Assembly: GCF_038432375.1 (NCBI RefSeq)
Contig: NZ_JBCAUS010000003.1
Coordinates: forward strand, 62,001-126,000
Length of the DNA: 64,000 nucleotides
DNA from: Methanococcoides sp. LMO-2
Lineage (GTDB): Archaea; Halobacteriota; Methanosarcinia; Methanosarcinales; Methanosarcinaceae
Direction: 5' to 3'
Both the position numbers and the translations under genes were made by a program. The notes below the pieces were generated by a model, which searched no databases, was not told where the DNA came from, and saw only the letters and a list, made by a program, of their open reading frames with translations. Shown here piece by piece: positions 1,202 through 61,691 of this stretch. Each line of letters starts with the position of its first letter. The first letter of the stretch is position 1.

Positions 1202-1245
1202 ATTATTGATATATAGAATATTCAGCTTCCCACGAAAAGACATTA

Positions 1246-2145
1246 CTAATCAAGAGACGGGAAAGCGCCGAACTTACTTTCATACCTGGCAACCATATCA
1301 TCCCATGTAGGAAGATCTGTCTGGCAACCAACTGACTCAACAGCAAATGATGCGACCGTAGCTCCTGCCTTTCCACAGACATCCAGCGGATATCCACGTA
1401 CATATGATACAAGGAAACCTGCACGATATGCATCTCCTGCACCGGTTGGGTCAACTGCCTTTACCGGAACCACCGGGATCTCGTATTCAGCACCTTCAGA
1501 GAATATCTTACTGCCTTCGGCATCATAGGTTACGACCACAATGTCTATCTTTTCCTTGATGTCCTCAAAAGTGCTCTCGGTCATGTCGCAGACGCGCTTG
1601 ATCTCGTGCTTGTTGGTGAAAAGGACATCGGTGTTCTCAAGGATAATTTCAAGATTCTCTCTTGTGTACGTTATAAGATCCTGTCCGGGATCAAAAGATA
1701 CGAACTTTGCCTTCTGTGCAATCCTGGCATTGAAGTTCGGCTCAGATGTTGCAAGGTGGACAAAGTCAACTTCCGGAGGGTCCAGTTCCTTCAGCTTTGC
1801 GGATGCTCCCCAGTAGAAGTAAGTTGACTGATTGTGGAAAGGATCCGTATAAACATATGCAGCAGTTCCCTTCTCACCCTCGAGCCTGAAAAGCAGGGAG
1901 AGATCAACACCCAGCCCATCAAGATGCTCTTCATAACCCGATGTTGCAAAATCATCCCCTACTGCAGAGATCAGCTGGGAGTTTCCGCCAAGGATAGAGA
2001 TAGCTGCAACGATGTTCGCAGCCCCGCCTCCAAAGAACTTCTGATAATCAACTATCGGATATGACTCGTTCTGTCCTGCAATTCCCTCCACATCGAACAG
2101 GAAGTCTATTGCAGCGTGACCTACTACAGATATCACATCAGACAT
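1246..2145 (-). CDS. PfkB-family sugar/nucleoside kinase
   Basis: A 299-residue ribokinase-fold kinase. The N-terminal GGGAAN motif (residues 39-44) is the substrate-side signature. DPTGAGD (232-238) is the anion-hole signature with the catalytic base D238. It transfers a phosphate from ATP to a sugar or nucleoside hydroxyl; the substrate cannot be read from the sequence, and an archaeal nucleoside kinase is one option. The ATG follows AAGGTGT and lies 9 bases after the DUF555 gene, so it is the last gene of the HerA-DUF357-DUF555 operon. Its stop is UAG followed at once by in-frame UAA, the only UAG gene end I found in the window. Confidence 0.85.
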   Translation of the reverse strand: MSDVISVVGHAAIDFLFDVEGIAGQNESYPIVDYQKFFGGGAANIVAAISILGGNSQLISAVGDDFATSGYEEHLDGLGVDLSLLFRLEGEKGTAAYVYTDPFHNQSTYFYWGASAKLKELDPPEVDFVHLATSEPNFNARIAQKAKFVSFDPGQDLITYTRENLEIILENTDVLFTNKHEIKRVCDMTESTFEDIKEKIDIVVVTYDAEGSKIFSEGAEYEIPVVPVKAVDPTGAGDAYRAGFLVSYVRGYPLDVCGKAGATVASFAVESVGCQTDLPTWDDMVARYESKFGAFPSLD

Positions 2146-14927: not shown

Positions 14928-15569
14928 TTACATATCACTTGATTTCACAGCACTGATCACCACAAAGGAGCCCTGTCCATGTCCCAGTAGCACGGGCTCT
15001 ATTTCCACTATATCCTTCAGTTCACTGAAGATCGTCTGTGTGCAGACGGGGTCATCAAACCCGGATTCGTTGAGAAGGTACACGACCTATTCCACAGAAT
15101 AGAAGGTTGCAAGTTCATAAAAAACATTGCTGGAACTTTTTCCCCGATATGACCTGCCAACAGGACTGTTTCTGTCTATAAACCCAATAACAAAGGATCC
15201 ACCCGGCGTCAGGATCCTATTCACTTCCCTGAATGCGGATACAATATCATCCAGGAAACAGATGGTTGTGGTCATCAGTACAAGGTCAAAGCTGGAATCT
15301 GTAAAAGGAAGCTTTTCAGCTACACCACGAACAACACCAATTCCTCTTTCCCGGGATATATCCAGCATGCTAGGCGAGGGGTCCAGACCCAGATGAATAT
15401 CCAGCGGTGATGCAAACCTTCCACTCCCAACACCGATCTCCACACCTCTTGAAAAGGATGGCATGTTGGCTCTCAATGCCTTCAGCTCTGAGTTGTAGAC
15501 AGGAGCGTTATCCTCGAACCACTTTTCATATCTGGAAGTGTACCTTTCGAATGGCATTGTCTTTGGCAT
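14928..15569 (-). CDS. Class I SAM-dependent methyltransferase with in-frame UAG
   Basis: The frame encodes 160 residues, a UAG codon (15087-15089), then 52 more residues to a UAA, 213 positions in all. The first part has the SAM-binding core (VEIGVGSGRFA, LGLDPSPSML) and post-motifs (FDLVLMTTTICFLDD, ILTPGGSFVIGFIDR). The part after UAG reads LLNESGFDDP, TQTIFSEL and GHGQGSFVVISAV, which is the usual C-terminus of this methanogen/clostridial methyltransferase group. So UAG is probably read through, perhaps as pyrrolysine, rather than ending the protein. The substrate is unknown. Confidence 0.8.
15087..15089 (-). other. In-frame UAG codon, candidate pyrrolysine site
   Basis: TAG on the minus strand after FYSVE, with the same frame continuing VVYLLNESGF. 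The family normally has a continuous helix here (FYSxEEVxxLLxxAGF), so the codon falls at a tolerant surface position. Confidence 0.65.
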
Positions 15570-59631: not shown

Positions 59632-60699
59632 TCAATCCTCATCATCCTCGAAGTACCTTCTTACAAGCAGAACAAGACTTGAACCGAGAAGTAGCAACAG
59701 GAAGATAGCGATGACCATGCCTTCCAGAGTAAAGTCCTGCCATGAGTGTACCGATACCCACATACCGCTACGGGTAACGAATGTTGCGAATATGACCAGT
59801 ATGAAGGAAGTCACTGCAAGCATCGGCGCGAGGAACCTGTATTCCCCATGTTGGACCCTTGTCTGGGCATGAAGGTAAGCGGTGGCAGTTATCCAGGGGA
59901 TCAGTGAGGATGTCTCAACAGGGTCCCATGTCCAGTACCATGCACCCCAGCCGAGGACCTCGTATGCCCAGAAACCGCCAAGTCCGATACCTGCTGTGAG
60001 GAAGAGCCATGCCATCCTCATCCAGTCCCGGGATATCTTTATCCATTTCTCATCATCGATGATAAGGGTTGCAAGAGCAGCTGCGAATGGAATTGTGAAA
60101 GCTGCATAACCAAGGAACAGTACCGGAGGATGGACTGCCATCCACGGGTTTCTCAGGAGAGGATTCATACCCTGTCCGTCCGTAAGCGGATATGCTGATA
60201 CGAACGGGTTCCAGTTGGAGATCTCCACGTATGAACCTACATCTCCATAATACATGGAGAACGGGTTCTTCAGTACCAGCAACATCAAGAAGACGGTAAC
60301 GATAAGCAGGCATATGGCCCGGGTGATGTTCATGACCCTGCTATCGAACAGCTCCTTAGTATGCCCTGTGTACTGCATTGCCAGAAGCATCAGGAGTGTA
60401 AACCATGTCCAGAGCAGGAAGGAACCCTCCTGGCCTGCCCACAATGCGGAAAGACGATAGACAAATTCAAGGTCGACGCTTGAATGCATGTAGACATAGA
60501 CGTAGGATGCCGATACCGTAAGCAGGTAATAGGTCAGCATCAGGATCGCAAGAGTGATAGCTGCCGTACAGCCAAGCTCAAGCTTCCTGGAAAGTGAACC
60601 TGCACTGGTACTGTTTGTACGCAGGTGGATGATGGAATATGCAGCTGAAGCCGCACCGAGGATGAAGGCTATCCAGATGAGGATCATTCCAAAGTTCAT
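59632..60699 (-). CDS. ccmF: CcmF N-terminal half (heme lyase, WWD domain)
   Basis: About 355 residues with nine or so membrane segments. It carries the WWD heme-binding signature GWGAWYWTWDPVETSSLIPW and the flanking ligand His (AVHPPVLFLGYA). It begins MNFGMILIWIAF at an ATG overlapping the stop of the C-half gene (ATGA, 60696-60699). CcmF ligates heme to apocytochrome c outside the membrane. In most organisms it is one protein of about 650 residues; here the second half is a separate gene placed first. Confidence 0.9.
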   Translation of the reverse strand: MNFGMILIWIAFILGAASAAYSIIHLRTNSTSAGSLSRKLELGCTAAITLAILMLTYYLLTVSASYVYVYMHSSVDLEFVYRLSALWAGQEGSFLLWTWFTLLMLLAMQYTGHTKELFDSRVMNITRAICLLIVTVFLMLLVLKNPFSMYYGDVGSYVEISNWNPFVSAYPLTDGQGMNPLLRNPWMAVHPPVLFLGYAAFTIPFAAALATLIIDDEKWIKISRDWMRMAWLFLTAGIGLGGFWAYEVLGWGAWYWTWDPVETSSLIPWITATAYLHAQTRVQHGEYRFLAPMLAVTSFILVIFATFVTRSGMWVSVHSWQDFTLEGMVIAIFLLLLLGSSLVLLVRRYFEDDED

Positions 60700-61691
60700 T
60701 TTTTGCCTCCCTTGCGGCTTTCTGGGCCATTGTCCCATTTTCCTTTGATCTTAGCCACAGTGTTTGCAGCTTTTCCATCAACCGAATAATCGATAATTCC
60801 AAGAATACTTATTCCGGCAAGCATCAGGAAAAGGCCACCCCAGATGAATGTGATGAAAGGTACGGTTCTTACATATATGCTGACCTCACCACTGTTCTCG
60901 TTCAGCGCTTTTGGAGCGATGAAAAGTTCTTCGAATATTCCACGATGCACGTATGTGGTCGTGTAGGTCTGGCCCCATTTGAAATCGGTGATGTATTTCA
61001 CCTGCCCACTGTCAAAATAAGCACCGTTTTTGTAGACATCGAAATCCACATAGGTTGCATAGGATGAACCATGATACTGTTTGTAATGTGAACCTTCGAA
61101 AACGGAATCCATTCCGGTAACCGAGACCATGTAGTTCTGTCCTTCGAACTAACCGGCAGAGTCCATGGAGACAACAGCAGAACCATCCACTTTCAGGTTA
61201 CTGCTGGCGACGATACCTATGAGGATGAGGATGATTCCAAGGTGGATGACGTGTGCACTGACCCCGCGCAGTTTCATCATGTTGGAATCCCTTTGCAGGG
61301 ACATATAGATCTTGTAGAATGTAGCCACCAGACCCATGCTCACTATTGGGACCGAAACATCAAGGGGAAGGTTTCCGAATGGTGAAAGAAAAACAAATGC
61401 TATGGACATTGCTACTGTGAGACCTCCCACGAACAACGTTCTCTTCGCACCGAAGTAACCATAGAGCAAATACATCGTGAGCAATACCACCAGTCCTGCG
61501 GTTGGAAGAGCGCTCCTGTTATTGAAGTACTCAGGAGTCATAGCCATTTCAACTCCTGTGGTCAGCCTGACTATCAGTGGAGTCAGCATGCCCACGGTTA
61601 TGAGAGCAGCAAGGAGCAGCATGGTCAATACCGCTACCAGCATAAGGTTACTGCTGTTCACGAGGTCTTTGCTTTGTTTCATGAAATTCAC
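60696..61691 (-). CDS. ccmF: CcmF C-terminal half with in-frame UAG
   Basis: 180 codons, a UAG (61149-61151), then 150 more codons in the same frame to UGA. Before the UAG: membrane segments, TPEYFNNRSALP and RGVSAHVIHLGIILILIG, which match the CcmF region after the WWD domain. After it: GQNYMVSVTGMDS, the VDFDVYKNG part and FITFIWGGLFLMLAGI, which match the periplasmic loop and last helix of CcmF. Both parts belong to one domain, so the UAG is probably decoded (pyrrolysine) rather than ending translation. A separate start at ATG 61130 is the alternative. Starts: GTG 61691 or ATG 61682. Confidence 0.82.
61149..61151 (-). other. In-frame UAG codon, candidate pyrrolysine site in CcmF
   Basis: TAG after VVSMDSAG and before FEGQNYM. 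CcmF proteins usually carry a short loop with Gly-Tyr here, so the residue would lie in the outside loop near the heme site. Confidence 0.65.

Follow-up and report, generated by a model that had tools for sequence, protein, structure and literature searches.

The window, a stretch of 64,000 nucleotides from a Methanococcoides genome, carries a gene for a putative class I SAM-dependent methyltransferase whose reading frame is crossed by one in-frame UAG, and the comparisons presented here suggest that this gene is most likely functional, with UAG read as pyrrolysine, that is, as an incidental sense codon without catalytic role. We infer from sequence comparison that decoding of the codon, pyrrolysine as the inserted residue and neutrality of the insertion are each the most likely reading.

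The interrupted frame and its product

Translation of the minus strand (MPKTMPFERY...ATFYSVE*VVYLLNESGFDDPVCTQTIFSELKDIVEIEPVLLGHGQGSFVVISAVKSSDM*) confirms the interruption that an earlier note on this DNA had read from the letters: starting with ATG at 15569, 160 codons are followed by TAG, 52 further codons and TAA (Table 1), with the TAG being the sole interruption of a frame that is otherwise intact and devoid of indels. Under translation table 11 the ORF stops at 160 aa, and a standard gene caller does truncate the gene, as had been predicted.

Table 1. Coordinates of the methyltransferase gene, its parts and two further genes with in-frame UAG
Feature	Position	Strand	Basis or remark
Methyltransferase gene, TM1293/1vlm-like class I SAM-dependent (putative)	14928..15569	-	read-through translation, 213 codons
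In-frame TAG (UAG), codon 161	15087..15089	-	pyrrolysine in the preferred explanation
TAA closing the full-length frame	14928..14930	-	translation, alignment
C-terminal segment, 52 codons	14931..15086	-	AlphaFold2 model, alignment
CcmF_C-like gene, second UAG case in the window	60696..61691	-	TAG at 61149-61151; Pfam and conservation
FrhB/FdhB-like gene	L084:16551-17723 (own genome C6:76551-77723)	-	UAG at codon 345

The assignment as a SAM methyltransferase, likewise proposed in the earlier note, is borne out by (i) a match of the read-through product to Pfam family Methyltransf_11 (8e-20) and (ii) its best solved relative, TM1293 from Thermotoga maritima (PDB 1vlm), with a profile match over residues 3-207 (3e-87) and, in the fold search, a TM-score of 0.95-0.98, an rmsd of 0.7 and 46% sequence identity over ~207 residues. 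A Rossmann-type methyltransferase fold is indicated by the Pfam match, by a glycine-rich motif I (E44 to G50, with E44, G46, G48 and G50 invariant), by the AlphaFold2 model of the full-length protein (mean pLDDT 94.5) and by the fold search, so that we classify the product as a putative TM1293-like class I SAM methyltransferase of ~210 residues. TM1293 resembles it over the whole protein, but is bacterial and devoid of a UAG; it is annotated as a possible histamine N-methyltransferase, which is an annotation only and does not establish the substrate. Membership in the MtmB/MtbB/MttB families was considered and rejected, since the Pfam matches are all of the SAM-methyltransferase type and the UAG site is not conserved. 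Those methylamine enzymes share with the present gene an in-frame UAG, the genome and the decoding machinery, but they belong to an unrelated family, in which UAG specifies a conserved active-centre residue.

A homologue search covering 60 relatives, a family-wide set (111 genomes) and a genome contig collection retrieved full-length methyltransferases (~207-213 residues) from many archaea and from bacterial MAGs, with overall identities of 91, 79, 77 and 70% within the genus; those from bacteria and from the remaining archaea share about 40-55%. The 52 codons after the TAG align with these proteins to their ends as well as with 1vlm, and since the homologues and 1vlm run full length, the stretch encoded past the UAG is genuine protein; the claim that it represents the expected C-terminus thus stands. 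Homologues ending naturally at the UAG, which the earlier note had named beforehand as evidence that would speak against it, were looked for, and none was found among the full-length homologues aligned.

In the AlphaFold2 model, residue 161 is located near the N-terminal end of helix 159-168, and the segment past the UAG comprises most of this helix along with the last two long sheet strands (171-179 and 202-209). This bears on the idea of a regulated gene with two products, in which termination would yield 160 residues and the supply of pyrrolysine would set the ratio to the 213-residue protein. Such an arrangement could draw on the accepted model of pyrrolysine insertion, according to which Pyl-tRNA competes with the release factor at UAG and no RNA element is required (PMC9499178). 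The short form would, however, be devoid of most of helix 159-168 and of both strands, a 160-residue form is absent from the aligned homologues, and the UAG is not conserved. The RNA following it is unremarkable as well, since a search for a PYLIS-like structure 3' of the UAG revealed nothing beyond shuffled sequences (z -0.9 to -1.1); an Rfam scan of the 64,000-nt window yielded no match. Hence, we consider a two-product gene highly improbable.

UAG in other genes of the genus

Judged by gene content, the cell is able to read UAG. The genome encodes PylS, PylB, PylC and PylD, all scoring over the NCBIfam cut-offs, and upstream of pylS a tRNA-Pyl with anticodon CTA, so that the pyl cassette (PylS/B/C/D plus tRNA-Pyl(CUA)) is complete in the same genome. 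Two mtmB genes with in-frame TAG are likewise present, as are two dimethylamine methyltransferase genes which, with TAG read through, match their family from end to end.

Samples of the own genome, comprising 75 kb around the window and about 330 kb of another contig, were compared with the sister species for their stop codons. Under table 11, only 12 of 381 aligned coding-like genes terminate in TAG, as opposed to 214 in TGA and 155 in TAA, and at least five of the 12 have, past the TAG, a long in-frame extension which appears coding-like in the two-species comparison. These five are the present methyltransferase, the CcmF_C-like gene, a dimethylamine methyltransferase, the FrhB/FdhB-like gene and a repeat-type protein. 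The last of these (L088:13268-14587; own genome C6:153268-154587, minus strand) has no Pfam match; in both species its codon 320 is TAG, and the frame after it is conserved.

The CcmF-like gene constitutes a stronger case than the methyltransferase. Its CcmF_C Pfam match (14-293) spans the UAG at codon 181, the TAG is kept in seven of the ten species of the genus and replaced by CAT (His) in the other three, and dN/dS after the UAG ranges from 0.04 to 0.15 when six carriers are compared. The TAG of the FrhB-like gene is kept in six of the ten species, with TAT (Tyr) in the rest; dN/dS after its UAG is 0.00-0.07, and this part of the protein shows zero amino-acid changes between the own genome and the sister. 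Since termination at these sites would not preserve such purifying selection past the UAG, the two genes provide, on sequence grounds, the strongest evidence for a sense UAG, independent of the methyltransferase. Their conserved UAG codons thus suggest that UAG is read as sense in the genus, and most likely in the methyltransferase too. The argument of the earlier note, that two cases within one window speak for decoding, is strengthened by the retention of the CcmF-like TAG across species, by the dN/dS values and by the complete pyl cassette.

As a control, 20 pairs of conserved neighbours separated by TAA or TGA were joined and scanned with Pfam. Domains were confined to one side of the stop codon, barring small overlaps at the domain edges (at most about 15 residues), which identifies these pairs as adjacent genes; in this sample, TAA and TGA interrupt no recognised domain. 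Four further TAG candidates on contig C6, namely aminotransferase V, DUF167, RadB/Rad51-like and NosD, were rejected: their recognised domain lies after the TAG, so that the upstream part is not demonstrably the same gene. In a sugar-kinase-like ORF of the window (1243-2145, minus strand; assigned by eye) the TAG is immediately followed by TAA, while the sister has GAG in its place and ends one codon later, representing a backed-up stop.

State and origin of codon 161 in the methyltransferase

The earlier note had asked whether the UAG site is conserved or is Glu, Lys or Gln elsewhere. It turned out not to be conserved: the aligned residue is Asp in G010, the sister with 91% identity, and elsewhere Glu, Asp or Gln, rarely Thr or His, and never UAG, with the codon being GAT in G010 and G007 and GAG in G005, G004 and G021. 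Among the genomes searched, UAG at codon 161 is private to this genome, and its own conservation therefore cannot vouch for decoding. An error of sequencing or assembly at a single base might be suspected, as the codon is seen in one genome, which is a 14-contig draft; yet just one clean base is concerned in a gene that is otherwise intact, and in-frame TAG is common in the genus, where several independent genomes confirm it in the genes concerned. We thus give an error of this kind hardly any credence.

A functional gene with a decoded UAG could have arisen as follows. An Asp/Glu codon would have mutated to UAG in this lineage, with GAG as the presumed ancestral state requiring but a single G-to-T change to become TAG. 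PylRS would then charge the CUA-anticodon tRNA-Pyl with pyrrolysine supplied by PylBCD, and the charged tRNA would compete with the release factor at the methyltransferase UAG, so that pyrrolysine is inserted and the full-length protein results. Position 161, being close to the start of a helix, variable and usually acidic, would be expected to tolerate many side chains; there is no indication that pyrrolysine has taken on a function there.

Internal stop codons were also surveyed at 65 methyltransferase loci of Methanosarcinaceae. Internal TAG occurs at three of these, i.e., in the present gene and in the homologues of two other Pyl-positive genomes, G014 (TAG at codon 40 of the match) and G006, and the sites all differ; internal TAA occurs at one of the 65, a third copy in G004, and internal TGA at none. 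Homologues from bacteria, or from surveyed archaeal genomes devoid of a PylS match over the cut-off, contain no internal TAG. The G006 homologue (L033, G006:C1:599096-599707), 42% identical to the methyltransferase of the window, carries two in-frame TAGs (match codons 111 and 185); its neighbours have Glu/Asp and Gln at these positions. Apparent internal TGA or TAA in G005, G007 and some others were dismissed, because they sit at codons 209-210 and are the natural ends. The third copy in G004 (G004:C9:276247-276875) is decayed, with TAA at codon 175, and G001 has a remnant of 65 codons which contains TAA (G001:C1:1301864-1302058).

Since G001 keeps only this remnant, the genus can dispense with the gene; a recent loss-of-function mutation is therefore a real rival. 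According to this alternative, the UAG would be the first lesion to inactivate a dispensable gene, and occasional read-through would be irrelevant to the cell. The loss in G001 and the splitting of the third G004 copy by TAA indeed show that relatives lose or degrade the gene, the UAG of codon 161 is not conserved, and the changes polarised onto the window branch before the UAG amount to five nonsynonymous and five synonymous (five amino-acid changes, versus two on the sister branch). On the other hand, the frame shows no other damage, and dN/dS between the methyltransferase and its sister is 0.15 upstream of the UAG and 0.28 downstream of it, values comparable to those of other family pairs. 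None of the polarised changes past the UAG falls on the window branch, and there is no sign of decay in this part; with a single carrier genome, however, this comparison is underpowered and comprises too little data to prove continued selection. Moreover, the cell appears to read UAG in the CcmF-like and FrhB-like genes, and in such a cell a gene could stay functional with a UAG at a tolerant site. Clean lineage-specific stops are also rare among the about 364 genes compared, and too few for statistics of TAG versus TAA/TGA. Taken together, we regard a recent pseudogene as unlikely.

Known precedents and implications

Incidental pyrrolysine in proteins unrelated to methylamine metabolism is already known, and the methyltransferase is one further such gene. 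A species-specific amber codon in Thg1 of Methanosarcina acetivorans is translatable and not essential for activity (PMC2933860). Like the methyltransferase, Thg1 is a non-methylamine gene with UAG in one species only, served by the ordinary Pyl machinery; pyrrolysine was physically observed in Thg1, however, whereas we infer it from sequence here. A 2005 study predicted UAG read-through in SAM methyltransferases, among them a 'putative methyltransferase' from Methanococcoides burtonii, and noted that UAG aligns with various amino acids (PMC1242214). The M. burtonii prediction resembles our case in being of the SAM type and in having various residues aligned with UAG, but concerns another gene copy, another species and another UAG site. 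Two overlapping M. burtonii entries of that study may correspond to the double-TAG homologue of G006.

It is then tempting to conclude, and we consider it probable for the combined reading, that UAG is a general sense codon in the genus which drifts into and out of ordinary genes such as the CcmF-like, FrhB-like and methyltransferase genes, and that the methyltransferase catches the gain of a UAG in a single lineage, with pyrrolysine being tolerated near the start of a helix. With the sister keeping an Asp codon, the gene offers a clean natural test of neutral UAG gain at a tolerant site. Since standard gene callers truncate this gene at 160 residues and also shorten the methylamine genes and those of the CcmF-like and FrhB-like type, genomes of such methanogens need to have TAG called as sense.

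A genome-wide 'Pyl code', in which TAG is throughout a sense codon for pyrrolysine, was reportedly described for archaea in 2025. The present genome shares with these archaea a low frequency of TAG termination and in-frame TAG in ordinary genes, but differs in having a few TAG ends that are plausible as stops, for example that of pylB. In both the own genome and the sister, pylB (L091:12051-13163, plus strand) has TAG as its end, and the frame runs on for 42 codons to a TGA; the TAG end of pylB is known from M. mazei, M. acetivorans and M. burtonii (PMC2933860).
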